Source: Mytilus galloprovincialis
Lineage: Eukaryota; Mollusca; Bivalvia; Mytilida; Mytilidae
Direction: 5' to 3'
Length of the DNA: 64,000 bases
Assembly: GCF_965363235.1 (NCBI RefSeq)
Contig: NC_134847.1
Coordinates: 59,428,439-59,492,438 of the forward strand
The notes beneath the pieces were generated by a model, which was given only the letters and a program-made list of their open reading frames with translations, made no database searches and had not been told where the DNA came from. Of this stretch, positions 10,601 to 55,190 are shown piece after piece (within the stretch, counting starts at the first letter, position 1; every line of letters begins with the position of its first letter). The position numbers and the translations under genes are program-made.

Positions 10601-13600
10601 TTTAAGCTCTAACTAGATGGTCACATATAAAGTTTACTGGTGACATGTTAGCGCTTAAAATTTGTCCTTTGCACTTGCGCATACATTTTCAATTGTGAAT
10701 TGATGCCATGAAAATTAGTGACGTTATCCAATCAAAATGAACGTTACAAATTATGTTGAATTAGAAGTCTTGTCACCTCTACTCTTTGTTTGTCTGCAGT
10801 TGTCACTTTGTCCATGTAAGCATCTGGATCTGTCTTTGCCAATTCATCCAATGATTTCTTCTCATTTTTCATTTTTTCTTTCCTTAATACTCTATGATAT
10901 CTGTAATGATGTGCATGAAAAATAAATTTTTATTGAAATTCTGAAGCCATCTTAAAAATAAATGTCACTCCTGAGTATGATAAAAGAAAACTTGTTTAAA
11001 TAGGCGACTCATATTCCTGCATATTAGCTCAATCCCTATTTTTCCACATTCCAATTTCTAAATACATAATTGTGTAGTTATTTAGTGATTAAATGGATGG
11101 AAAACTTAAGCCCAAGTTGCTAACAAGCTTTAGTTCTCTCAGACATGATGTGCCTTGATCTTTGACATACAGGAACCTTTAAGTTTTCCTCAAAGATGTT
11201 TATTTCTGATGAAGATTGGAGTGAAAATGAATCAATATGATGCCTTCAAGCTTTAATCCTCATAGGAATATTAAATACTGAAATTGGATCTGGTTTTTTT
11301 TGTTCAAAATTTCTAGTAATCTAACAACAACATCTATAAAATATGAGACTGAACTTCTCCAACACATACATGAGGTTACAAACAGATGGATAGTCGCGTT
11401 TATATAACACTAGTGCATAGTTATATTTATGGGTAATAAAAGATTAATGTATAGTTTGGGCCACCCTTAAAAGAATCTTTGTTTAATGTTTCTACCCTTC
11501 AATGCCTTGTAGTGTTGGGTAAGTAGGTAGGAATTTTTTGTTTGCCAACAACACAAGTTACATGTTTAAGCCATGAAAATGGAATCAGAGCAGAAAAAAA
11601 ACATTTATTTGAGTCATTTAACTTAAAGGTTTCAGAAATTCAGATACCATCATTCATTATTTAAAAAAAAAACTTTGAAAAAAAAACCAATGCCTTTTCA
11701 GTGAATATGGAAAGTAGCTTGATCTTCCATATCCATTAAAAAGATACAAATTTGATCATGATATTCAAGGGATCTTCAAAGGTTTCACATACTTACTTTT
11801 TACTTTTAATTTTATTACGCCATCTTGCTTTTGTTTCTCTATATGATAACAAAGCCCTGTGCTTCCTTAATTCAGCAAGTCTTTCTCTTGCCTGAAATAT
11901 TACAGAAATTACATTATAAACAACTCCTAACATTTTATAAAATGCAACCTAAAATATGAAGCTTTGTTGTTTGTTTGCAGATCATCTTAATTGTAGAATA
12001 TTTTTCAACCGAAAAAAATATTTTAAGAGAAAGTTTTTCGGCCATATATAATCCTTTATTCCTTTGAAATGTTATCACTCGAAGCTTAAAGGGTCTTTTC
12101 TTATCTTTTTCATTTAAAGTCTCAAAATAATCAGTACCTTTAATGTGTTAAACCTTACCTCTTCAAGACTCAAAGCTTTCAGTGTTAAAACCTTACCTCT
12201 TCAAGACTCATAGCTTTAAGTGTTAAAACCTACTCATAGATTTTTAAGTGGTAAATCCTTACCTCTTCAAGACCCATAGCTTTTAGTGGAAAAACCTTAC
12301 CTCTTCAAGCCTCGTAGCTTTAAGTGGTAAAACCTTACCTCTTCAAGACTCATAGTTTTAAGTGTTAAAACCTTAACTGTTCAAGACTCATAGCTTTAAG
12401 TGGTAAAACCTTACCTCTTCAAGACTCAAAGCTTTAAGTGGTAAAACCTTACCTCTTCAAGACTCATAGTTTTAAGTGGTAAAACCTTACCTCTTCAAGA
12501 CTCATAGTTTTAAGTGGTAAAATCTTACCCCTTCAAGACTCAAAGCTTTAAGTGTTAAAACCTTACCTCTTCAAGACTCATAGCTTTAAGTGGTAAAACC
12601 TTACCTCTTCAAGACTCAAAGCTTTAAGTGTTAAAACCTTACTTCTTCAAGACTCAAAGCTTTCAGTGTTAAAATCTTACTTCTTCAAGACTCAAAGCTT
12701 TAAGTGTTAAAACCTTACCTCTTCAAGCCTCGTAGCTTTAAGTGGTAAAACCTTACCTCTTCAAGACTCATAGTTTTAAGTGTTAAAACCTTAACTGTTC
12801 AAGACTCATAGCTTTAAGTGGTAAAACCTTACCTCTTCAAGACTCAAAGCTTTAAGAGGTAAAACCTTACCTCTTCAAGACTGATAGCTTTAAGTGGTAA
12901 AATCTTACCTCTTCAAGACTCATAGCTTTAAGTGGTAAAACCTTACCTCTTCAAGACTCATAGCTTGCAGTGCCTTTTCTTCAGCTAGTGTAAGTTCATG
13001 TGTGTTTGATACAACATTTTCACTCCCCTTCAGTAAAGATGCCACTTCTATCTCTAAGGAAGACCTTGGCTGTAAAATATATCATATATCAAATTAATTT
13101 AATCAGTCGTCATAAAATTATAAGTCTTCGTAACTATCTTAAGTCTTCATAACTATCTTAAGTCTTCATAACTATCTTAAGTCTTCATAACTATCTTAAG
13201 TCTTCATAACTATCTTAAGTCTTCATAACTATCTTAAGTCTTCATATCTGTCATAAGTCTTCATAATTGTTTCCAGTCTTCATAACTATATAAATTCTTC
13301 ATAAATTATTTAATAGTGAGGGTTGTCACACAGGTGGAAACCAAAGGCTTTAAAATTGGTATATGCTTGACCCACTTAGCACGCGGAATTAAGGAGTAAG
13401 AGTTAAGACTGGTAGACTGGTGTCAGGAAAATGTATCCAGGTAGGGTGACATGTCTTCCTGCAGACTGTTATCTTAAAAAAATCTTGCTGATCATGTCAA
13501 TCTAGTACAAATAAGGGTATCCTGTTCGTATGTTCTCATCCTGAATATACTTTTAATTTGCCAATTAACATTAAACAGCCATCCATTATAATTTCTGGTA

Positions 13601-23875: not shown

Positions 23876-25917
23876 TATGGCAAGCCGTTCTCGTCAAAAC
23901 TATGTTTAAACCATTTTTCGAAAAATTTACACACTGACAATTACAACAAAGCACACTGAGATTTATAAACTTCAAAAAACACACTGAGAATTGAAAATTA
24001 CACACTGAGAATTGAAAATTACACACTGAGAATTAAAAATTACACACTGAGATTTCATAAAGACGCACTGAGATTACAAAAATGAAAAACGCACACTGAG
24101 AATTGAAAATTACACACTGAGACTTGAAAATTACACACTGAGATTTCAAAAAGACACACTGAGAATAAATAAACTGAAAACACACACTGAGAATTTGAAA
24201 TTACACACTGAGAATTTAAAATTACACACTGAGATTTGTGCGCACCTTTTATGCGCACATATCTAATTAGCATACTTAAATCTGAATCTATTACAAGCTT
24301 AAAACAACAAGGGGACAGAACTCGTTAGTCCTTCGATTTGGTTCCAAATTATTAATAAAAAAAACTTTAGAAATACAAGAACAAGAAAAATACCCACTTA
24401 CTCTTATTACAAAATATAACCAAATGGTGAAAAACTTTATTAAAATTATAAGAAAACATTGGAACAATCTGCAAAAGAATGCAGTGAAATTTTTACTCAA
24501 GTGTCTATTATAGCATATAAACGTAACACAAATATAAAAGATTAACTAGCGAAATCAGGGAAACAGTTGGAAGACTTTTGAAAAGGGACACATGTTTAAT
24601 TACTGGTAGTAATGACCTGAATTATAGGCAACAAACTTATGAATATGAGCAATGTTAAGTCTTGAAATTTATTACGAATGTTGGTTGAAGGAATCGCATT
24701 TCATTATAATGACAAGAGTTCTTCAGATCAAGATATTAATCTGTTGAATTATTCATCTCATGAATATTCATTAGTAATTTGCATATTAATCTCAGTGTGT
24801 ATTTTTGAAATCTCAGTGTGTAATTAACAATTCTCAGTGTGTGTTTTTCAATTTATTTCATCTCAGTGTGTCTTTTTAAAATCTCAGTGTGTAATTTTGA
24901 AATCTCAGTGTGTGTTTTTTATTTTTTTAAATCTCAGTGTGTAATTTCGATTTATCAGTGTCACCGTGTAGAACCCCACATGCGGGGTGTCGGCTATGTT
25001 TGACACGGGGTGGCAATTTCGAAGCGAAGAAAAACTGTCAAAGTAAGTTCAAGTATCAAAATTTATTTATTTAGAATTCATAGTACCATATAATGTACTG
25101 CACGGAAGGAACTGAAACACAATTTATTTCCTGCAAGCAAAACCAGTCGTTTTCAGTGCTCTGTTTTCTCAAACACCTCTCCCTAGTTTTCCGTGTTCCA
25201 GATTTTCAGGCTTCATATGCAAATTTCTGGATAAAAAACTACTTTAGATGACTTCCCTCTGCATCTTTCAGTTTTTTTATTTGTTATCATGATATAGCAG
25301 ATGTGTTTGAATTAAAAAGGATCAGACAAAAGACAGATTTACATGATTCATATGCAAATCTATTCGTTTTTTATTGGAAGCCTCTACCCCTTGAGATGCA
25401 AAATCTGACACCCCGAGCGACACTTTATATTTTGATGAAAAACTAGTTTTAAAACCAATTAATTTTAAGTATGAAGCTGGTATGTTGTTAAATTCCATAA
25501 AAGGAATTCAATTCTATATAAATGATGCAGAGGGAAGTCGTCTAAAGTAGTTTTTTATCCAGAAATTTGCATATGAAGCCTCAAAATCTGCAACACGGAA
25601 AACTAGGGAGAGGTGTTTGAGAAAACAGAGCACTGAAAACGACTGATTTTGCTTGCAGGAAATAGATTGTGTTTCAGTTCTTTCCGTGCAGTACATTATA
25701 TGGTACTAAGAATTCTAAATAAATAAATTTTGATACTTGAACTTACTTTGACAGTTTTTCTTCGCTTCGAAATTGCCACCCCGTGTCAAACATAGCCGAC
25801 ACCCCGCATGTGGCGTTCTACACGGTGAGTGTGTTATTTTTGGTTTTTAAATCTCAGTGTGTATTTTTTTTCGGAAAAAGGGTTTAAACATAGTTTTGAC
25901 GAGAACGGCTTGCCATA
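23876..25917. mobile_element. Fold-back element with inverted CACACTGAG arrays, TSD TACCC
   Basis: TACCC at 23871-23875 and 25918-25922 flank termini TATGGCAAGCCGTTCTCGTC and its exact inverse. Next to the termini both ends carry 'aaaactatgtttaaacc'. The left arm (about 23927-24236) is an array of about 12 units containing ACACACTGAG(A). The right arm has the same unit inverted (about 24786-24957 and 25828-25862), split by the 866-bp insertion at 24962. The centre (24237-24785) is non-coding. Confidence 0.85.
24962..25827. mobile_element. Transib/RAG-like non-autonomous element, TSD AGTGT
   Basis: AGTGT at 24957-24961 and 25828-25832. Removing the element plus one AGTGT restores a normal unit of the surrounding array, which confirms the insertion. 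Termini CACCGTGTAGAAC and its inverse. The arms are about 300 bases long and highly similar; left 'cttcatatgcaaatttctgg' pairs with right 'ccagaaatttgcatatgaag'. The 5-bp target duplication and CAC..TG heptamer-like ends fit the Transib superfamily, whose ends resemble V(D)J recombination signals. The roughly 250-base centre encodes nothing. Confidence 0.8.
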
Positions 25918-30241: not shown

Positions 30242-30250
30242 TAAGATATC
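30242..30250. repeat. Target-site duplication, left copy
   Basis: TAAGATATC, identical to 39649-39657. It abuts the first base of the fold-back terminus ATGGGCGTCAAG. Confidence 0.92.
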
Positions 30251-30265
30251 ATGGGCGTCAAGTTG

Positions 30266-30506
30266 GTTACCTATTCCCTATTCCCTATTCGTTACCTATT
30301 CCCTATTCCCTATTCGTTGCCTATTCGTTACCTATTCCCTATTCCCTATTCGTTACCTATTCGTTACCTATTCCCTATTCGTTACCTATTCGTTACCTAT
30401 TCCCTATTCCCTATTCGTTGCCTATTCGTTACCTATTCCCTATTCCCTATTCGTTACCTATTCGTTACCTATTCCCTATTCCCTATTCGTTACCTATTCG
30501 TTACTT
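30266..30506 (+). repeat. Terminal subrepeat array, left arm
   Basis: Irregular mixture of the 11-mer GTTACCTATTC (variant GTTGCCTATTC) and the 7-mer CCTATTC. Open frames of 92-95 codons arise in all three frames because the units lack stops; they are not genes. Confidence 0.9.
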
Positions 30507-30569
30507 ATTTGATTTTTAATATCCTTCCCCCTTTTTAATTATGGCATGGAATAGTTTAATATGGCTGCC

Positions 30570-30993
30570 GTTACCATGGAAACGGCACAATTGTGAAAAA
30601 AATGAGCTTTTGGTTTTTGGTGAACTGTTTGGATATGCTTCAACTCAGAATCATCATATTTTAAAACAATGTAGGTGCCCACTATATACAGGTGTTGGAT
30701 GATTTTGGCGATCATTGGAACTACTATGTTGCCATGGAAACTACACCAAAATTTTCAAAATTCTAAAAATGCTCAAAACTTCATGAAACTTCACAGTAAT
30801 GATGTGCAACATTGGAGTTGGAATTTCCAAAATAGGTCTTGTTACCATGGAAACAATGCAAAAAGGTAAAAAATTTCAAAAATAAGAATTTTCCGCAAAC
30901 TGGATGAAACTTTACAGGAATGGTAACTGGCATAGGCAGAGTTGGATTTTGAAGTTAGAATTTTTTTTAAATGGCCGCCGTAACCATGGAAAC
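30570..30993. promoter_or_regulatory. Four X-box-like (RFX) palindromes, left arm
   Basis: GTTACCATGGAAAC at 30570, GTTGCCATGGAAAC at 30728, GTTACCATGGAAAC at 30841 and GTAACCATGGAAAC at 30980. Each is close to the RFX-family consensus GTTNCCATGGNAAC and each sits in a diverged repeat of about 115-160 bases with 'atgaaact' words. Function as binding sites is inference. Confidence 0.5.
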
Positions 30994-31394
30994 AGCAAAA
31001 ATATCAAAAATTCAAAATGTTCAAACTTAATGAAACTTTGCAAAAATGTTACTAGACATCTGTAGATGCTCTCTTTGACTTTGGAATTGTCAAAATGGCT
31101 GTCGCTCACCTGGTAATAGGGGGAAGGGGTGCCTTCCGTTATTGCTAGCAATTACAAATCTAGTTGTTAATAGTCTTACATATGGTAATAGTTCTGAATT
31201 GGTTGAGGTAAAATGATCTTTTTATGACCTATTTATATGTGTTTGTGCTCAACCGATCCTTTTACTTCATGTTCGATACGCATTTGTTCCTTACTTGTTT
31301 TTTATACGTTCTACCTTTTAACTGCTTTATGTCCGTATGTTTGAAGATGGATCTTGGTTCGACGGGATGAAATCACCGTGTTAGCGCTTGCGTA

Positions 31395-31740
31395 AAAACG
31401 AAGATGTGGTATGATTGCCAATGAGACAACACTCCACATTAGACCAAAATGACACAGAAATTATCAACTATAGTTCACTGTACGGCCTTCAACAATGAGC
31501 ATAGCCCAAACCGTGTAGTCACCTATAAAAGGCCCAGACATGACAACCTCATACAATTCAAACAACAAAACTGACGGCCGTATTTCATATACAAAAAAAT
31601 AAACGGAAATATGTAACACAAAAACAAACGATAACTACTTAATTTCAGGCTCTTGTCTAGGGACAGGCACATACTTACATAATGTGGTAGAGTTAAACAT
31701 GTAAGCAGGGTGTACATCGTTTCGGAGCATGCTATTACCT
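31395..31740 (-). repeat. Family A repeat inside left arm
   Basis: Starts 'gatgtggtatgattgccaat' and ends near 'gtaagcagggtgtacatcg'. It interrupts a diverged tandem monomer. An identical copy sits at the mirror position of the right arm. The 64-codon frame here is part of the repeat, not a gene. Confidence 0.85.
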
Positions 31741-34700
31741 TGTTTAATTCGTTCCATCACTCGCTTATAATTCGCTTATAATACGTGTATCTTACGTTGC
31801 ACCTTTTAAAACATGATTTTCAATTGTTTTGTTGTCTCTGGTGGAAGATTTGGGCTCTTAGAGGTTATATAACTCTATAAGTGCATTTGTATCCGTTCCA
31901 GCGGTCGGATAATACCCTATTAAATATTCGTTACTATTTCGCTTTTAAAAAGTTTGTTGTACGTTGCACCTTTTAGAAAAGGATTTCCAATTGTGTTCAT
32001 ATCTCTGGTGGTAATAATGTGTTCTTATAGATGAAATACCCCTATAAGCGCATATGTACTCGTTCCAGCGATCGGTTAATACCCTGTTACCTATTCGTTA
32101 CCTATTCACTTATAGTACGTTTGTTGTACGTTGCACCTTTTAGAAAAGGATTTTCAATTAAATTCATATCTCTGATGGTAACAATGTGTTCTTAGAGATG
32201 AAATGACCCCATTAGAGCGCATGAACCCGTTCCAGCGCTCGGTAAATAACCTGTTACCTATTCGTTACTTATTCGCTTTTAATGCGCGGGGTATACGGTG
32301 CACCTTGAAATAAATCGTTTTTTAATTGTGTTCAGGTCTCTGGTGGTAAGAATGTGTTCTTAGAGATGAAATTACCCTATTAGCGCGCATGTACCTGTTC
32401 CAGCGCTCGGTTAATACCCTGTTACCTATTCGTTACCTATTCGTTACCTATTCGCTTATAATACATTTTTTTATACGTTGCACCTGTTAGAAAAGGATTT
32501 TCAATTATGTCCAGGTCTCAGACGGTAACAATGTGTTCTTAGAGATGAAATGACCCCATTAGAGCGCATGTACCCGTTCCAGCGCTCGGTAAATAACCTG
32601 TTACCTATTCATTACCTATTCGCTTTTAATGCGCGGGGCATACGCTGCACCTTGAAATAAATCGTTTTTTAATTGTGTTCAGGTCTCTGGTGGTAAGAAT
32701 GTGTTCTTAGAGATGAAATGACCCTATTAGCGCGCATGTACCCGTTCCAGCGCTCGGTTAATACCCTGTTATCCATTCGTTACCTATTCGTTACCTATTC
32801 GCTTATAATACATTTTTTTATACGTTTCACCTGTTAGAAAAGGATTTTCAATTATGTCCATGTCTCAGGTGGTAACAATGTGTTCTTAGAGATGTAATTA
32901 CCATATTAGCGCTCATGTACCCGTTCCAGTGCTCGGTAAATAATCTTGTTACCTATTCGTTACCTATTCGCTTTTAATGCGCGGGGTATACGCTGCAACT
33001 TGAAATAAATCGTGTTTTAATTGTGTTCATGTCTCAGGTGGTAACAATGTGTTCTTAGAGATGAAATGACCCCATTAGAGCGCATGTACCCGTTCCAGCG
33101 CTCGGTAAATAACCTGTTACCCATTCGTTACCTATTCGCTTTTAATGCGCGGGGTATACGGTGCACCTTGAAATAAATCGTTTTTTAATTGTGTTCAGGT
33201 CTCTGGTGGTAAGAATGTGTTCTTAGAGATGAAATGACCCTATTAGCGCGCATGTACCCGTTCCAGCGCTCGGTTAATACCCTGTTACCTATTCGTTACC
33301 TATTCGTTACCTATTCGCTTATAATACATTTTTTTATACGTTTCACCTGTTAGAAAAGAATTTTCAATTATGTCCATGTCTCAGGTGGTAACAATGTGTT
33401 CTTAGAGATGAAATGACCCCATTAGAGCGCATGTACCCGTTCCAGCGCTCGGTAAATAACCTGTTACCTATTCGTTACCTATTCGCTTTTAATGCGCGGG
33501 GTATACGCTTCACCTTGAAATAAATCGTGTTTTAATTGTGTTCATGTCTGGTAGTAACAATGTGTTCTTAGAGATGAAATGACCCCATTAGAGCGCATGT
33601 ACCCGTTCCAGCGCTCGGTAAATAACCTGTTACCTATTCGTTACTTATTCGCTTTTAATGCGCGGGGTATACGGTGCACCTTGAAATAAATCGTTTTTTA
33701 ATTGTGTTCAGGTCTCTGGTGGTAAGAATGTGTTCTTAGAGATGAAATGACCCTATTAGCGCGCATGTACCCGTTCCAGCGCTCGGTTAATACCCTGTTA
33801 CCTATTCGTTACCTATTCGTTACCTATTCGCTTATAAAACATTTTTTTATACGTTTCACCTGTTAGAAAAGGATTTTCAATTATGTCCATGTCTCAGGTG
33901 GTAACAATGTGTTCTTAGAGATGAAATGACCCCATTAGAGCGTATGTACCCGTTCCAGCGCTCGGTAAATAACCTGTTACCTATTCGTTACCTATTCGCT
34001 TTTAATGCGCGGGGTATACGCTGCACCTTGAAATAAATCGTGTTTTAATTGTGTTCATGTCTGGTAGTAACAATGTGTTCTTAGAGATGAAATGACCCCA
34101 TTAGAGCGCATGTACCCGTTCCAGCGCTCGGTAAATAACCTGTTACCTATTCGTTACTTATTCGCTTTTAATGCGCGGGGTATACGGTGCACCTTGAAAT
34201 AAATCGTTTTTTAATTGTGTTCAGGTCTCTGGTGGTAAGAATGTGTTCTTAGAGATGAAATTACCCTATTAGCGCGCATGTACCCGTTCCAGCGCTCGGT
34301 TAATACCCTGTTACCTATTCGTTACCTATTCGTTACCTATTCGCTTATAATACATTTTTTTATACGTTTCACCTGTTAGAAAAGAATTTTCAATTATGTC
34401 CAGGTCTCAGACGGTAACAATGTGTTCTTAGAGATGAAATGACCCCATTAGAGCGCATGTACCCGTTCCAGCGCTCGGTAAATAACCTGTTACCTATTCG
34501 TTACCTATTCGCTTTTAATGCGCGGGGTATACGCTGCAACTTGAAATAAATCGTGTTTTTATTGTGTTCATGTCTGGTGGTAACAATGTGTTCTTAGAGA
34601 TGAAATGACCCCATTAGCGCGCATGTACCCGTTCCAGCGCTCGGTAAATAACCTATTACCTATTCGTTACTTATTCGCTTTTAATGCGCGGGGTATACGG

Positions 34701-35610
34701 TGCACCTTGAAATAAATCGTTTTTTAATTGTGTTCAGGTCTCTGGTGGTAAGAATGTGTTCTTAGAGATGAAATTTCCCTATTAGCGCTCATGTACCCGT
34801 TCTAGCGCTCGGTTAATACCCTGTTACCTATTCGTTACCTATTCGTTACCTATTCGCTTATAATACATTTTTTTATACGTTTCACCTGTTAGAAAAGGAT
34901 TTTCAATTATGTCCAGGTCTCAGACGGTAACAATGTGTTCTTAGAGATAAAAAGACCCCATTAGAGCGCATGTACCCGTTCCAGCGCTCGGTAAATAACC
35001 TGTTACCTATTCGTTACCTATTCGCTTTTAATGCGCGGGGTATACGCTGCACCTTGAAATAAATCGGTTTTTTTAATTGTGTTCAGGTCTCTGGTGGTAA
35101 CAATGTGTTCTTAGAGATGAAATTACCCTATTAGCGCGCATGTACCCGTTCCAGCGCTCGGTGAATACCGTGTTACCTATTCGTTACCTATTCGTTACCT
35201 ATTCACTTATAATACTTTTGTTGTATGTTGCACCTTTTAGAAAAGGATTTTTAATTGTCTCCATGTCTCTGGTGGTAACAATGTGTTCTTAGAGATGAAA
35301 TGACCCTATTAGCGTGCATGTACCCGTTCCAGCGCTCGATAAATACCCTGTTACCTATTCGTTACCTATTCACTTATATTACGTTTGTTGTACGTTGCAT
35401 CTTTTAGAAAAGGATTTTTAATTCAGTTCATATCTCTGGTGGTAATAATGTGTTCTTTAAGATGAAATACCCCTATTAGCGCATATGTACTCGTTCCAGC
35501 GCTCAGTTAATACCCTGCTTCTTATTCGTTCCTTATTTGCTTTGAATGCACGAGGTATACGTTGCACCTTGAAATAAATCGTTTTTTAATTGTGTTCATG
35601 TCTCTGGTGG
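31741..35610 (+). repeat. About 170-bp tandem monomers, left arm (about 22 units)
   Basis: Monomers are marked by 'cgttccagcgctcggt' followed by one to three 'gttacctattc' words. Two types alternate: one with 'aatgcgcggggtatac' and one with 'ataatacatttttttatacg'. This gives a higher-order period of about 345 bases. The outermost monomers (31741-32220) are the most diverged, and the last few at the centre (35200-35610) also differ, as expected for array edges. Confidence 0.9.
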
Positions 35611-35614
35611 AACG
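35608..35614. other. Arm-to-arm junction (palindrome centre)
   Basis: The forward monomer reading 'tctctggtgg' switches directly to an inverted monomer reading 'ggaacgggtacatg'. The two are joined at different monomer positions and share TGG. There is no unique loop. Confidence 0.85.
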
Positions 35615-38164
35615 GGTACATGAGCGCTAATAGGGTAATTTCATCTCTAAGAACACATTGTTACCACCTGAGACATGGACATAATTGAAAATCCTTTTCT
35701 AACAGTTGAAACGTATAAAAAAATGTATTATATGCGAATAGGTAACGAATAGGTAACGAATAGGTAACAGGGTATTAACCGAGCGCTGGAACGGGTACAT
35801 GCGCTCTAATGGGGTCATTTTATCTCTAAGAACACATTGTTACCGTCTGAGACCTGGACATAATTGAAAATCCTTTTCTAACAGGTGAAACGTATAAAAA
35901 AATGTATTATAAGCGAATAGGTAACGAATAGGTAACGAATAGGTAACAGGGTATTAACCAAGCGCTGGAACGGGTACATGCGCGCTAATAGGGTAATTTC
36001 ATCTCTAAGAACACATTCTTACCACCAGAGACCTGAACACAATTAAAAAAAGATTTATTTCAAGGTGCACCGTATACCCCGCGCATTAAAAGCGAATAGG
36101 TAACGAATAGGTAACAGGTTATTTACCGAGCGCTTGAACGGGTACATGCGCTCTAATGGGGTCATTTCATCTCTAAGAACACATTGTTACCACCAGACAT
36201 GAACACAATTAAAACACGATTTATTTCAAGGTGCAGCGTATACCCCGCGCATTAAAAGCGAATAAGTAACGAATAGGTAACAGGTTATATACCGAGCGCT
36301 GGAACGGGTACATGCGCTCTAATGGGGTCATTTCATCTCTAAGAACACATTGTTACCACCAGACATGAACACAATTAAAACACGATTTATTTCAAGGTGC
36401 AGCGTATACCCCGCGCATTAAAAGCGAATAGGTAACGAATAGGTAACAGGTTATTTACCGAGCGCTGGAACGGGTACATGCGCTCTAATGGGGTCATTTT
36501 ATCTCTAAGAACACATTGTTACCACCTGAGACATGGACATAATTGAAAATCCTTTTCTAACAGGTGAAACGTATAAAAAAATGTATTATAAGCGAATAGG
36601 TAACGAATAGGTAACAGGGTATTAACCGAGCGCTGGAACGGGTACATGCGCGCTAATAGGGTCATTTCATCTCTAAGAACACATTCTTACCACCAGAGAC
36701 CTGAACACAATTAAAAAACGATTTATTTCAAGGTGCACCGTATACCCCGCGCATTAAAAGCGAATAGGTAACGAATAGGTAACAGGTTATTTACCGAACG
36801 CTGGAACGGGTACATGCGCTCTAATGGGGTCATTTCATCTCTAAGAACACATTGTTACCACCTGAGACATGAACACAATTAAAACACGATTTATTTCAAG
36901 TTGCAGCGTGTACCCCGCGCATTAAAAGCGAATAGGTAACGAATAGGTAACAAGATTATTTACCGAGCACTGGAACGGGTACATGAACGCTAATATGGTA
37001 ATTACATCTCTAAGAACACATTGTTACCACCTGAGACATGGACATAATTGAAAATCGTTTTCTAACAGGTGAAACGTATAAAAAAATGTATTATAAGCGA
37101 ATAGGTAACGAACAGGTAACGAATGGATAACAGGGTATTAACCGAGCGCTGGAACGGGTACATGCGCGCTAATAGGGTCATGTCATCTCTAAGAACACAT
37201 TCTTACCACCAGAGACCTGAACACAATTAAAAAAAGATTTATTTCAAGGTGCACCGTATACCCCGCGCATTAAAAGCGAATAGGTAACGAATAGGTAACA
37301 GGTTATTTACCGAGCGCTGGAACGGGTACATGCGCTCTAATGGGGTCATTTCATCTCTAAGAACACATTGTTACCGTCTGAGACATGGACATAATTGAAA
37401 ATCCTTTTCTAACAGGTGAAACGTATAAAAAAATGTATTATAAGCGAATAGGTAACGAATAGGTAACGAATAGGTAACAGGGTATTAACCAAGCGCTTGA
37501 ACGGGTACATGCGCGCTAATATGGTAATTTCATCTCTAAGAACACATTCTTACCACCAGAGACCTGAACACAATTAAAAAACGATTTATTTAAAGGTGCA
37601 CCGTATACCCCGCGCATTAAAAGCGAATAAGTAACGAATAGGTAACAGGTTATTTACCGAGCGCTGGAACGGGTACATGCGCTCTAATGGGGTCATTTCA
37701 TCTCTAAGAACACATTGTTACCATCAGAGATATGAATTTAATTGAAAATCCTTTTCTAAAAGGTGCAACGTACAACAAACGTACTATAAGTGAATCGGTA
37801 ACGTATAGGTAACGAATAGGTAACAGGGTATTAACCGATCGCTGGAACGAGTACATATGCGCTTATAGGGGTATTTCATCTATAAGAACACATTATTACC
37901 ACCAGAGATATGAACACAATTGGAAATCCTTTTCTAAAAGGTGCAACGTACAACAAACTTTTTAAAAGCGAAATAGTAACGAATATTTAACAGGGTATTA
38001 TCCGACCGCTGGAACGGATACAAATGCACTTATAGAGTTATATCACCTCTAAGAGCCCAAATCTTCCACCAGAGACAACAAAACAATTGAAAATCATGTT
38101 TTAAAAGGTGCAACGTAAGATACACGTATTATAAGCGAATTATAAGCGAGTGATGGAACGAATT
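35611..38164 (-). repeat. About 170-bp tandem monomers, right arm (about 14 units)
   Basis: Same two monomer types as the left arm, inverted. About eight units fewer, so the right arm is about 1.3 kb shorter than the left. Confidence 0.9.
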
Positions 38165-38515
38165 AAACAAGGTAATAGCATGCTCCGAAACGATGTACAC
38201 CCTGCTTACATGTTTAACTCTACCACATTATGTAAGTATGTGCCTGTCCCTAGACAAGAGCCTGAAATTAAGTAGTTATCGTTTGTTTTTGTGTTACATA
38301 TTTCCGTTTATTTTTTTGTATATGAAATACGGCCGTCAGTTTTGTTGTTTGAATTGTATGAGGTTGTCATGTCTGGGCCTTTTATAGGTGACTACACGGT
38401 TTGGGCTATGCTCATTGTTGAAGGCCGTACAGTGAACTATAGTTGATAATTTCTGTGTCATTTTGGTCTAATGTGGAGTGTTGTCTCATTGGCAATCATA
38501 CCACATCTTCGTTTT
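38165..38515 (+). repeat. Family A repeat inside right arm
   Basis: Mirror copy of 31395-31740, with an identical 64-codon open frame. Confidence 0.85.
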
Positions 38516-38916
38516 TACGCAAGCGCTAACACGGTGATTTCATCCCGTCGAACCAAGATCCATCTTCAAACATACGGACATAAAGCAGTTAAAAGGTAGA
38601 ACGTATAAAAAACAAGTAAGGAACAAATGCGTATCGAACATGAAGTAAAAGGATCGGTTGAGCACAAACACATATAAATAGGTCATAAAAAGATCATTTT
38701 ACCTCAACCAATTCAGAACTATTACCATATGTAAGACTATTAACAACTAGATTTGTAATTGCTAGCAATAACGGAAGGCACCCCTTCCCCCTATTACCAG
38801 GTGAGCGACAGCCATTTTGACAATTCCAAAGTCAAAGAGAGCATCTACAGATGTCTAGTAACATTTTTGCAAAGTTTCATTAAGTTTGAACATTTTGAAT
38901 TTTTGATATTTTTGCT

Positions 38917-39340
38917 GTTTCCATGGTTACGGCGGCCATTTAAAAAAAATTCTAACTTCAAAATCCAACTCTGCCTATGCCAGTTACCATTCCTGTAAAG
39001 TTTCATCCAGTTTGCGGAAAATTCTTATTTTTGAAATTTTTTACCTTTTTGCATTGTTTCCATGGTAACAAGACCTATTTTGGAAATTCCAACTCCAATG
39101 TTGCTCATCATTACTGTGAAGTTTCATGAAGTTTTGAGCATTTTTAGAATTTTGAAAATTTTGGTGTAGTTTCCATGGCAACATAGTAGTTCCAATGATC
39201 GCCAAAATCATCCAACACCTGTATATAGTGGGCACCTACATTGTTTTAAAATATGATGATTCTGAGTTGAAGCATATCCAAACAGTTCACCAAAAACCAA
39301 AAGCTCATTTTTTTCACAATTGTGCCGTTTCCATGGTAAC
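38917..39340. promoter_or_regulatory. Four X-box-like (RFX) palindromes, right arm
   Basis: GTTTCCATGGTTAC at 38917, GTTTCCATGGTAAC at 39056, GTTTCCATGGCAAC at 39169 and GTTTCCATGGTAAC at 39327: the inverted images of the left-arm sites. Confidence 0.5.
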
Positions 39341-39404
39341 GGCAGCCATATTAAACTATTCCATGCCATAATTAAAAAGGGGGAAGGATATTAAAAATCA
39401 AATA

Positions 39405-39633
39405 AGTAACGAATAGGTAACGAATAGGGAATAGGGAATAGGTAACGAATAGGTAACGAATAGGGAATAGGTAACGAATAGGCAACGAATAGGGAATAGG
39501 GAATAGGTAACGAATAGGTAACGAATAGGGAATAGGGAATAGGTAACGAATAGGGAATAGGGAATAGGTAACGAATAGGCAACGAATAGGGAATAGGGAA
39601 TAGGTAACGAATAGGGAATAGGGAATAGGTAAC
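39405..39633 (-). repeat. Terminal subrepeat array, right arm
   Basis: Inverse of 30266-30506 with a different order and number of 11-mer and 7-mer units, so this part has changed since the arms were identical. Confidence 0.88.
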
Positions 39634-39648
39634 CAACTTGACGCCCAT

Positions 39649-39657
39649 TAAGATATC
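39649..39657. repeat. Target-site duplication, right copy
   Basis: TAAGATATC, identical to 30242-30250. Confidence 0.92.
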
Positions 39658-41949: not shown

Positions 41950-42660
41950 TCGGTAATTCCATGGGAACCAACTGGGCCCCTCTTGTCGACTTGTTCCTTT
42001 ATTCTTTTGAGGCTGACTTCATGCAAGAACTAGAAACAAAAGAATTTAGTATTATCATTTGAATTAACTTTCCGCAATATATATATATAGATGATGTTCT
42101 CCCACAAAATTTAGTGACTATGTTGAACGCATTTATCCCATCGAACTAGAGATAAAGGATACAACATATACAGCTAAGTCTGCCTCATATCTTGACTTAC
42201 ATCTATATAAATTGACAATTAGAGTCGGTCGAAAACAAAACTTTACGACAAAAGAGATGATTTGAGCTTCCCAAGTGTGAACTTTTCATTTCTATGTAGC
42301 AACATTCCAGCAGCGCCTGCAAACGGAATACATATCTCACAATTGAAACGATATTCCCGGGCTTGTATTCCTATCATTATTTCCTTGATAGAGGGTTGCT
42401 GCTCGCAAGAAAACTATTAAACCAAGAGTTCCAAATTGTGCAGTTGAAATCATCCCTTTGTAAGTTTTACGGACGTCTTTACGGGTTAGTTGACCGTTAT
42501 AAAATATCCGTTTCACAGATGATATAGGATATGTTTCTGGTGTGGTAACTACAATCCCGTTCCCTTTTCACGAATGTGAACTACCAAATAAGACTATTTA
42601 CCGGATTTGTAATACCATGAACAACACGAAGGGTGCCACATGTGGATCAGGATCTGCCAC
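41950..42660 (+). pseudogene. Decayed reverse transcriptase fragment, family 2 copy 1
   Basis: Plus-strand remains of MGTNWAPLVDLFLYSFEADF (about 41961-42020), then a YPIELEIKDTT-like block (about 42132-42165) and DKRDDLSFPS..NFSFLCSN (about 42248-42305), interrupted by frameshifts. Same family as 43400-44225 and 51905-52515, in the opposite orientation to both. Confidence 0.75.
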
Positions 42661-42850
42661 CCTTCCGGAACACCCCCAGACTTTGGTGGGGTTCGTGTTG
42701 CTTAGTCTTTAGTTTTCTATGTTGTGTTTTGTGTACTTTTGTTTGTCTTTTTGTCTTTACTTTTGTGGCCATGGCTTTGTCAGTTTATTTTTGATCTATG
42801 AGTTTGGATGTCCCTTTGGGATCTTTCGCCAATCTTTTTGAAGGCAGCAA
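42640..42850 (+). repeat. 3' tail of RT family 2, copy 1
   Basis: 'ccacatgtggatcaggatct', 'ggtggggttcgtgttg' and 'tgagtttggatgtcc' recur inverted at 43480-43725 and 51910-52140. Presumed 3' untranslated tail. Confidence 0.7.
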
Positions 42851-43399: not shown

Positions 43400-44225
43400 T
43401 TTTAAACAACTTCATATGCTAGCCGTAGAGTGGCGGTCACAAACATGTTTAACATCGCCATATTCTGAATATGGGTTCTGATCTGTCCAAAGTCCACAAG
43501 AGGGACGATAGATACCAGAGGGACAGTCAAACTCATAAATCGAAAATAAACTGACAACGCCATGACTAAAAATGAAAAAGACAAACAGACAAACAATAAT
43601 ACACATGACACAACATAGAAAACTAAAAAATAAACAACACGAACCCCACTATAAACTAGGGGTGATTTCAGGTGATCCGAAAGGGTAAGCAGATCCTGCT
43701 CCACATGTGGCACTCGTCGTGTTGCTTATGTGATAAAAAATCCGGTAAATAGTATAATTCGGTAGGTCACATTCATGAAAGGGAAGGGGATTGTAGTTAC
43801 AACGTCAGGAACATATCCGATATCATTTGTGAAACGGTAATAACGGTCAAGCGATTTGTGATGGCGTCCGTAAAATTTACGAAGTGATGATTTCAACTTC
43901 CCCATTTGAAACTCTTGGTTTAAAAGCTTCCTTGTGAGCAGCAACCCTCTATCAAGAAAATCATGATATGAAATGCAAGCACGGGAATATCGTATCAATT
44001 GGGAGATATATACACCGTATGCAGGTGCTGCTGGAATGTTGCAAATAGAAATGGAAAGTTCACAATTGGAAAGCTGAAATCATCTCTTTTGTCGTAAAGT
44101 TTTGTTTTCAACCGACCCTCATTGTCAATTTCTAAATGTAAGTCATGATATGAGGCCGACTTAACTGTATCTGTTGTATCCTTTATCTCTAGTTCGATGG
44201 GATAGATGCATTAAACATAGTCACT
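43400..44225 (-). pseudogene. Decayed reverse transcriptase fragment, family 2 copy 2
   Basis: Minus strand. From 44225 leftward: a YPIELEIKDTTDTVKSASYH-like block, DKRDDFSFPIVNFPF, VYISQLIRYSRACISYHDFL (43998-43726 frame), then the family's 3' tail. Stops and frameshifts present. Confidence 0.75.
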
Positions 44226-44229
44226 AAAT

Positions 44230-45275
44230 TTTGCATTATTTAGTGAAAGAACATCATCTTTTTAGCGGAGAGTTAAAGGCTATTGCTAACTGTCAGTTTC
44301 AGAGAATTTTTCGTTTGAATCAGATCCTTTACAAAGTATCCCTCCCTAAGACAAGATACTTGTATCTACGTTGGCCATTCTTTTTTATGAAACAAAGCAA
44401 TATCAACTCTTTCAATTTTTCTTTTAGTTTGGAATGTGGAATACTATACATTTATTTCCCGTGTCTGAGGGAGATATGAAGATTTGTTCACCCAAGAATA
44501 TTCATATTTCACGAGGACTCTGCCCGAAGGAAATATGATTTTTCGCATAGAGGTTAAACAAATCTCCATATCTCCCGAGACCAAGGGAAATGAATGTTTT
44601 ATTCCACTGCCTATGCTTTGTTTACTTTCTGAATATCAAATATTAGTTTGAATACAATCTTTTTCTTATCCGCTAGTTTTTATTACTAAACACGACATAC
44701 ATTGATAAACAGTACGGATAACAAGTTAATTATTAGCCTTTTTTTGTATAAACGTCTGAATAAATTTGTACAAGAAAATGATATTTGCTATGTCTATTTA
44801 GAAAATAGAAAATTTAGATAATAAGACGTTTAAATTAACCGCACGCCGTCGCATGATTTAGTCCCGACATTTCAGAGGGGAATATTATGATACTGAGAGG
44901 GAAATATGAAGATTTGTTCAATGACACGTGGGACAGTCTCAACCAATCAAATATTGTTTAAACCATCAATATGTATAAACAGTGGAATAAAATGGAATGT
45001 GTAACTCAATAGTATTCGTTGGCCGTTTGAGTTTTGTCATATTGTTTAGGCCGTTGATTTTTGTCATAATTAATTATCCCACATATTGTCATACTAATTT
45101 CTTATGAATTCTGTTTTTTTTTAAATGCAGTTCGTTGTCATCTTTAATCTTTTACCGTCCTTTGGTCTGTGTAGATAGTCATCTCAATGACAATCAAATC
45201 ATGTATAATTTTGAAATATATTTGTCCAACCTTGTCATATCGAAAACCTCTTTCGTTCCTTATACAGGTTTTTTT

Positions 45276-51798: not shown

Positions 51799-52701
51799 CT
51801 TATGCTGAGTTCACACGTAATTCGAATTCGATTCGCATTAACTAATTCGAATTAGTTTAATACGCATTCGTCCTAACGTCAATTCTAATTCGAATTGCAA
51901 TTCGCTTTACTGTCCAAAAGAGGGACGAAAGATACCAAAGGGACAGTCAAACTCATAAATCTAAAACAAACTGACAACGCCATGGCTAAAAATGAAAAAG
52001 ACAAACAGAAAAACAATAGTACACATGACACAACATAGAAAACTAAAGAATAAACAACACGAACCCCATCAAAAACTAGGGGTGATCTCAGGTGCTCCGG
52101 AAGGGTAAGCAGATCCTGCTCCACATGCGGCACCCGTCGTGTTGCTTATGTGATTACAAATCCGGTAAATAGTCTAATTCGGTAGGTCAAATTCATGAAA
52201 GGGAAGGGGATTGTAGTTACGACGTGAGGAACATATCCGATATCATTTGTGAAATGGTTATTCCATAACGGTCAACCAACTCGTGATGGCGTCCGTAAAA
52301 TTTACGAAGAGATGATTTCAACTTCACCATTTGGAACTCTTGATTTAATAGCTTCCTTGTGAGCAGTAACCCTCTATCAAGAAAATCATGATAGGAAATG
52401 CAAGCACGGGAATATCGTATCAATTGAGAGATATATACCCCGTATGCAGGTGCTGCTGGAATGTTGCTACTTAGAAATGGAAAGTTCACAATTGGAAAGC
52501 TGAAATCATCCAAACGACGTTTGAAACTTTTAATTCGATTTAACAAAAGCGTATTTCTTATGCGAACTGGATAATTTGAATTAGCCAATTCGAATCAATT
52601 CGAATTAAAAAAAATAGAGTGTGTGAACGCAATAAGCGAATTCGATTCGCATTCGATTCGAATTCAATTCGAATTGAATGCTCGTGTGAACGAGGCATAA
52701 G
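51799..52701. mobile_element. AATTCGAATT-rich inverted-repeat element carrying an RT fragment
   Basis: Termini CTTATGCTGAGTTCACACG and, inverted, CTTATGCCTCGTTCACACG, each followed by strings of 'attcgaattcg'. The interior (about 51905-52515) is a piece of RT family 2 with its 3' tail. No clear target duplication. Either the retroelement piece inserted into a MITE, or the MITE carries it as cargo. Confidence 0.75.
51905..52515 (-). pseudogene. Reverse transcriptase fragment, family 2 copy 3
   Basis: Minus-strand DDFSFPIVNFPFLSSN, AYGVYISQLIRYSRACISYH and then DRGLLLTRKLLNQEFQ, followed by the family 3' tail. Only the C-terminal part of the RT is present. Confidence 0.8.
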
Positions 52702-55032: not shown

Positions 55033-55190
55033 TTTTGGAATTTTGGATCCTCAATGCTCTTCAACTTTGTACTAGTTTGGGTTTATAAATATTTTTGATT
55101 TGAGCGTCACTGATGAGTCTTAAGTAGACGAAACGCGCGTCTGGCGTACTAAATTATAATCCTGGTACCTTTGATATTAACTATATAGAA
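55033..55190 (+). mobile_element. Hammerhead-bearing short interspersed element
   Basis: 'tttggaattttggatcctca', 'atgctcttcaactttgtact' and then the ribozyme motif and 'aattataatcctggtacctt'. It interrupts the 80-bp satellite. The first part recurs at 63907-63985 without the ribozyme. Confidence 0.65.
55104..55147 (+). ncRNA. Type I hammerhead self-cleaving ribozyme motif
   Basis: All conserved core parts occur in order: stem I strand GCGTCA (55104-55109), CTGATGA (55110-55116), stem II GTC/GAC (55117-55119 with 55127-55129) closed by a 7-base loop, GAAA (55130-55133), a very short palindromic stem III ACGCGCGT (55133-55140), cleavage triplet GTC ending at 55141, and stem I' TGGCGT (55142-55147), which pairs with GCGTCA using two G-U pairs. 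Cleavage is expected after 55141. A short stem III is typical of animal retrozyme-type hammerheads, which may act best as dimers. Confidence 0.85.

Follow-up and report, generated by a model that had tools for sequence, protein, structure and literature searches.

What is the 9,398-bp mirror-image structure at positions 30251-39648 of the window, the whole 64,000-nucleotide stretch of Mytilus galloprovincialis DNA that was analysed, and how did it arise? An earlier note, made from the letters alone, had described a fold-back of inverted tandem arrays at this place, and the coordinates proved exact. Self-BLAST aligned 30244-34291 with 39658-35608 in inverted orientation (95.1% identity over 4,089 columns), and the inserted element is flanked by a perfect 9-bp target-site duplication (TSD), TAAGATATC, identical on the plus strand at 30242-30250 and 39649-39657. 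Both element ends read ATGGGCGTCAAGTTGG inward, the left 16-bp terminus (30251-30266) from 30251 on the plus strand and the right one (39633-39648, minus strand) as the complement ending at 39648.

From the terminus inward, each arm consists of 7/11-bp subrepeats, a segment with four X-box-like sites, a dispersed repeat and monomers of ~167/180 bp, a layering that the note had also recognised, with monomers of about 170 bp. On the plus strand of the left arm, the terminal subrepeats (CCTATTC and GTTACCTATTC; TRF) occupy 30266-30510, the X-box segment 30521-31120, a middle segment 31121-31390 (96-100% identity in other copies, among the matches listed), the dispersed repeat 31391-31660 (five diverged matches elsewhere in the window), a pre-array segment 31661-31769 and the array 31770-35610. 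On the minus strand of the right arm follow the array (35608-38140), the pre-array segment (38141-38249), the dispersed-repeat copy (38250-38519), the middle segment (38520-38789) and the X-box segment (38790-39389), the last four placed by arithmetic from the arm alignment, and the terminal subrepeats (39401-39633; TRF). Both arrays were delimited by self-BLAST and TRF; TRF reported terminal subrepeats of 7, 11 and 36 bp and, for the two arrays, a ~168-bp unit in 21.7 and 13.9 copies. The 14-mers that we take to be X-box-like start at 30570, 30728, 30841 and 30980, and the same four are readable in the right arm. They are conserved: among 12 copies, 10 have all four in the left arm, and C4s and C1s have three; that they recruit a host factor is speculation.

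The two arrays head toward each other and adjoin with a 3-bp overlap (TGG) at the junction TCTCTGGTGGAACGGGTACATG (35601-35622, plus strand), so the arms do meet without a spacer, as had been claimed. The element is not a strict palindrome, however, since its arms are unequal. Its halves measure 5.36 and 4.03 kb, with 23 versus 15 anchor sites, because the arrays differ in length (3.84 and 2.53 kb); outside the arrays the arms are 1,519 and 1,508 bp long and differ by one substitution plus 4- and 7-bp indels within the terminal subrepeats. The monomers also contain the terminal 11-mer GTTACCTATTC, a point absent from the earlier note. At the outer edges of the arrays, monomers resemble their mirror counterparts (L1/R1 98.8%, L2/R2 100%, L3/R3 99.4%). 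The inner left-arm monomers L4-L19 mostly match another left-arm monomer at 97-99.4%, with L7 (94.6%) as the exception, and form a repeated three-monomer group with 513-bp spacing. In a satellite array the interior is typically renewed while the margins age, and the monomer pattern of this element has this look.

Other repeats of the window were recorded separately. A second composite inverted element at 23876-25917 has near-identical ends (TATGGCAAGCCGTTCTCG...), inverted arrays of ACACACTGAG units and an internal 308-bp inverted pair (97%). An inverted repeat joins 42105-42836 and 43498-44233 (745 columns, 83%), and 51913-52510 is a related stretch of 600 bp. Neither of the two structures showed an exact duplication of 7-12 bp at its ends. 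The window further holds a tandem repeat at 12138-12966 (38-bp unit, 22 copies, 88%) and a Type I hammerhead ribozyme at 55104-55147 (score 34.1 versus the Rfam gathering threshold of 34).

Whether the structure is a mobile element was assessed by a genome search for other termini, for which the earlier note had asked, taking the lack of any other copy as evidence against its reading. The exact 16-bp terminus was found 227 times (112 forward and 115 reverse); the pattern read backwards, used as a control, gave 0. Of the 100 termini listed first, 92 can be joined into 46 facing pairs on C1-C4, of 6,264-21,153 bp (median 12,331). All 46 pair lengths are distinct, the nearest two being 10,554 and 10,555. 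We estimate the family at roughly a hundred copies and, from ~112 times the mean pair length, at roughly 1.5 Mb or 0.1% of the genome. The first 300 bases of the element matched at 97-100% identity at all 40 places scored of 808 candidates, this copy included. In the pre-array arms of the main copies compared, the median difference is 0.73%, which indicates a young burst. Thirteen copies were read completely (12 and C1n) and 10 more at their ends; C2b, whose right end lies beyond the stretch examined, contributes one arm. Most complete copies were picked among the places most like this one, and the sample leans to near relatives. A perfect 9-bp TSD flanks 18 of the 23 copies with both ends read (11/12, 0/1 and 7/10), and 22 of 23 have a TSD with at most one mismatch; C4s, the exception, has no matching TSD. 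Array sizes and the position of the centre vary from copy to copy among the 12 complete copies; a 22-mer of the array was counted 45.6 times per copy in 13 copies. With long inverted arms built of subrepeats, insertion as a unit with target duplication and dispersed copies of variable arm length, this family of DNA transposons is of the Foldback type, non-autonomous and recently active; the many loci that share these ends but have their own flanks and TSDs bear out the Foldback-like mobile family proposed at the outset.

The junction at the centre of the element gave further evidence. Its 22-mer TCTCTGGTGGAACGGGTACATG has 44 exact places in the genome, 24 in one orientation and 20 in the other (control 0), and since it is asymmetric, it marks orientation. 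Palindromes and long arrays are error-prone in assembly, and array lengths could be wrong; one might thus ask whether we are dealing with an assembly artefact, or with an inverted duplication of an ordinary satellite, and no transposon at all. An identical asymmetric junction recurring in both orientations, together with identical ends at many loci that each have their own flanks and TSDs, already largely refutes this idea, and we give it hardly any credence.

Of the 13 copies examined first (12 complete copies and C2b), 10 carry the main junction. On C1-C4 it occurs at 22 places, 19 inside pairs, one in each, and 3 near an unpaired terminus, and 27 of the 46 pairs lack it. In 17 of 19 copies the left-of-junction arm exceeds the other in length (p = 0.0007); the length asymmetry is therefore partly inherited and not remade at each move. 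C11 and C4s each have a junction of their own, that of C4s with a short non-array spacer, whereas C1s and C1n have a second junction in common, which is also loopless. A tree of arms with a midpoint root places C1s and C1n outside the main group (moderate support, 85/85); given this placement, the main junction is possibly derived, the product of an internal deletion. The missing loop had been thought unusual. This copy is indeed loopless, but so is much of the family: the arrays abut without a loop in 13 of the 15 centres read, C4s and L065 being the exceptions, and a middle domain between the arms, of the kind found in Tetris, was not seen in those 13. The copy at C2:24179960 (L065) has a 1.2-kb interior. 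This interior was considered as a coding loop and set aside, as by eye it resembles a nested hAT-like insertion with mirrored CAGGGCCGTAGCG / CGCTACGGCCTTG ends, plus short non-array remnants.

Within a copy, the two arms are more alike than expected. In the pre-array columns, 43 derived sites (sites departing from the majority) are common to both arms of a copy in 11 copies, compared to 9.8 expected for re-paired arms, and none of 20,000 shuffles reached 43. The excess was also observed in 10 copies (39 versus 9.4) and in the 8 main copies (19 versus 4.6). The right arm of C2a (733 bp, with an internal deletion), the left arm of C1a (4.9-kb insert) and the single arm of C2b were excluded from these tests. 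As a separate observation, a 4.9-kb insertion lies in one arm at L011:1370-6246, with ~13 bp of the arm repeated at both edges. In the arm tree, the two arms are sisters with strong support in W, C2c and C4s and with moderate support in C4a and C11. The arms of C7a, C14, C13, C1b and C1n are not sisters, and for C1s the tree supports neither arrangement. Homogenisation is therefore not universal. No site separated the arms left of the junction from those right of it (8 versus 9 arms, frequency-difference threshold 0.5). It might be argued that the arms are alike merely through the youth of all copies, with no conversion between arms. The small inter-copy difference and the copies with non-sister arms are in line with this, but it accounts neither for the surplus of shared derived sites, main copies included, nor for the three strongly supported sister pairs, and we regard it as improbable. 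Instead, each arm seems occasionally to be converted to the sequence of the other, with the polarity of the junction retained, as suggested by the shared derived sites, the sister arms and the lack of side-specific sites.

If the family has moved so recently, which transposase moved it? No transposase-sized open frame was found in any of the 13 copies read through (an open-frame test with no domain search), in agreement with the earlier note, which had seen none in this element. In 12 copies, the frames of at least 120 aa are limited to two fragments of reverse transcriptase from a nested LINE (C1b) and to low-complexity translations of subrepeats; C1n has no frame over 109 aa. The frames of C14 (152 aa) and C1b (140 aa) were rejected as transposase candidates, being low-complexity readings of the terminal subrepeats. 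The right termini of these two copies (L019, ~2900, and L027, ~7007) start with ATG and open a 140-152-aa low-complexity frame through the subrepeats. Because all 13 copies lack a transposase-sized frame, we conclude that the element was moved in trans; this part of the earlier proposal stands, although no helper was found. The search for relatives returned many other copies, none of the 13 read through having a transposase-sized frame, and a MULE transposase was found neither in the element nor in a same-ended relative (13 copies and 11 MULE stretches). A helper may lie among the roughly 100 other copies, and we assign the family to no superfamily.

The size of the TSD bears on the class of the helper. 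P and hAT transposons leave about 7-8 bp, and for Galileo, the P-superfamily comparison, it is about 7 bp versus 9 bp here. Polinton and Helitron do not fit a 9-bp duplication and such an anatomy. In contrast, 9 bp lies within the range of 8-11 bp given for MULEs in the part of PMC6446971 used here. The genome contains at least 140 matches to the MULE domain PF10551 (150 of 324 candidates scored), many of them in open frames of 400-550 aa. On C1-C4, among the matches listed, the closest of 47 MULE matches and 99 termini are 124 kb apart, and the terminus ATGGGCGTCAAGTTGG with up to 3 mismatches occurs in none of the 11 MULE stretches examined, which fall into 10 kinds when sorted by score or open-frame length, L034 and L036 being counted together. 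Of the 10 MULE places sampled, three (L032, L061 and L062) have the MULE match between inverted repeats that overlap tandem subrepeats of 21-26 bp. In L034, one frame encodes FLYWCH and MULE domains, the pair given for Phantom transposases in the section of PMC3169594 used here. MULEs with Foldback-like ends therefore live in this genome, and among those examined there is no tie to the ends of our family. The 2.7-kb FLYWCH-MULE elements at L034:837-3570 and L036:1870-4607 are 98.7% identical. Their 441-aa FLYWCH-MULE protein was rejected as the partner, since the element at L034:837-3570 has GGT... ends and, by eye, an apparent 8-bp duplication. The 12-mer GGAATAGGTAAC occurs in both elements and also in the Foldback subrepeats, which may be a coincidence.

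The 9-bp duplication and the presence of MULEs in the genome suggest a Mutator-type helper. We think it probable that the family is a non-autonomous Foldback-type transposon whose ends are recognised by a transposase made elsewhere, most likely of the Mutator type. The same design could also be served by another superfamily (P/Galileo-type, hAT, Merlin or other). Fold-back ends accompany different transposase classes, as the parts of PMC3573991 (Galileo, P-type) and PMC3169594 (discussion of Tm1) used here indicate, and a MULE partner with these ends was not found in the stretches and listed matches covered. Such a helper nevertheless appears unlikely to us, as the 9-bp TSD of 18 of 23 copies fits MULEs and is longer than that of P and hAT elements.

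For the reading with a Mutator-type helper, the following course can be proposed from the sequences. A transposase encoded elsewhere would recognise the ends and move the whole 6-21 kb mirror element, presumably by cut-and-paste, leaving a 9-bp target duplication. The 11-mer GTTACCTATTC, which stands in tandem at the ends and again in the monomers, would be a putative multiple (secondary) transposase-binding site; 12 elements carry 45-172 exact copies each, terminal subrepeats counted. After excision or breakage, repair might copy from the sister, from the other arm or from a shifted monomer. Such repair could alter the array length in each copy, replace the sequence of one arm by that of the other and shorten the centre. 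For Galileo, secondary transposase-binding sites are reported within the tandem repeats of the arms, tandem expansion alters arm length, and broken arms may be mended from another arm (PMC3573991, in the part used here). A mechanism of the Galileo type, carried further, would explain our family best; in it, the class of transposase, the role of the 11-mer in binding and the route of repair are presumptive.

Going beyond this, the transposon may have turned into a self-homogenising mirror satellite, a tentative idea that we entertain with some doubt. The palindrome would then have formed once or a few times, the arms would serve as mutual repair templates and the 11-mers as a binding platform. 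If this were true, a loopless palindrome would have spread as a unit with array length shifting between copies, the dozens of internal 11-mers of each element would act as one very large transposase-binding platform, and satellite-like arrays would be scattered across the genome by the family. Long palindromes are generally regarded as unstable, as are long tandem arrays; here they travel together, in units of 6-21 kb with clean target duplications. With about 100 near-identical copies, an orientation-marking junction and paired arms, the family offers a natural test case for gene conversion between arms, for array expansion and for the spread of satellites. It also raises the question of how a transposase pairs ends that are separated by a structure able to extrude as a multi-kilobase hairpin.

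Several known systems can be compared with this family. Sea-urchin TU and Drosophila FB/NOF elements likewise have long inverted arms of subrepeats, but the described copies have a central loop or domain. Among bivalves, oyster Helentrons and clam tandem-repeat MITEs are reportedly mobile carriers of satellite-like arrays; unlike the present family, they are said to be not mirror-image and to belong to another mobility class. No mollusc Foldback family of this kind was found in the titles and abstract openings that our searches of open-licence papers listed, and the word 'foldback' is absent from the main text of PMC10294476, on bivalve transposons, as far as used here. Closer relatives in design come from other animals. 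The 2-TIR copies of Galileo in Drosophila mojavensis are, like ours, nearly all long, internally repetitive inverted arms with no transposase; we also count as alike the independent tandem expansion of each arm, the 98-100% identity between the arms of a copy and the recombination proposed for arm extension (PMC3573991, in part). They differ in that they average 1.7-2.2 kb, compared to 6-21 kb here, and Galileo, of the P superfamily, has relatives with transposase segments, whereas no coding relative was found for our family. Tetris of Drosophila virilis is also a non-coding Foldback with arms of tandem monomers (~220 bp there). Its TSD is 8-10 bp, and its monomers share a 37-bp stretch with the flanking domain, for which its authors suggest a scenario similar to that of Galileo; on the other hand, it has a middle domain between the arms, arms of at most 1,735 bp and only 3 structurally complete copies (PMC4079207, in the part used here). 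The Mutator/Foldback Tm1 of Meloidogyne shares composite inverted ends with tandem motifs, 9-bp TSDs and a mostly non-autonomous state with the present family. It differs in having a known copy with a Phantom-type transposase, in looking inactive and in its tandem motif of ~14 bp, and satellite arrays are not described in the part of PMC3169594 used here. Next to Galileo 2-TIR, Tetris and Tm1, the mussel family is ordinary in kind and extreme in degree, because most of its centres read are loopless (13 of 15), one junction recurs at 44 places, the arms are homogenised within copies, and 46 pairs have 46 different lengths.
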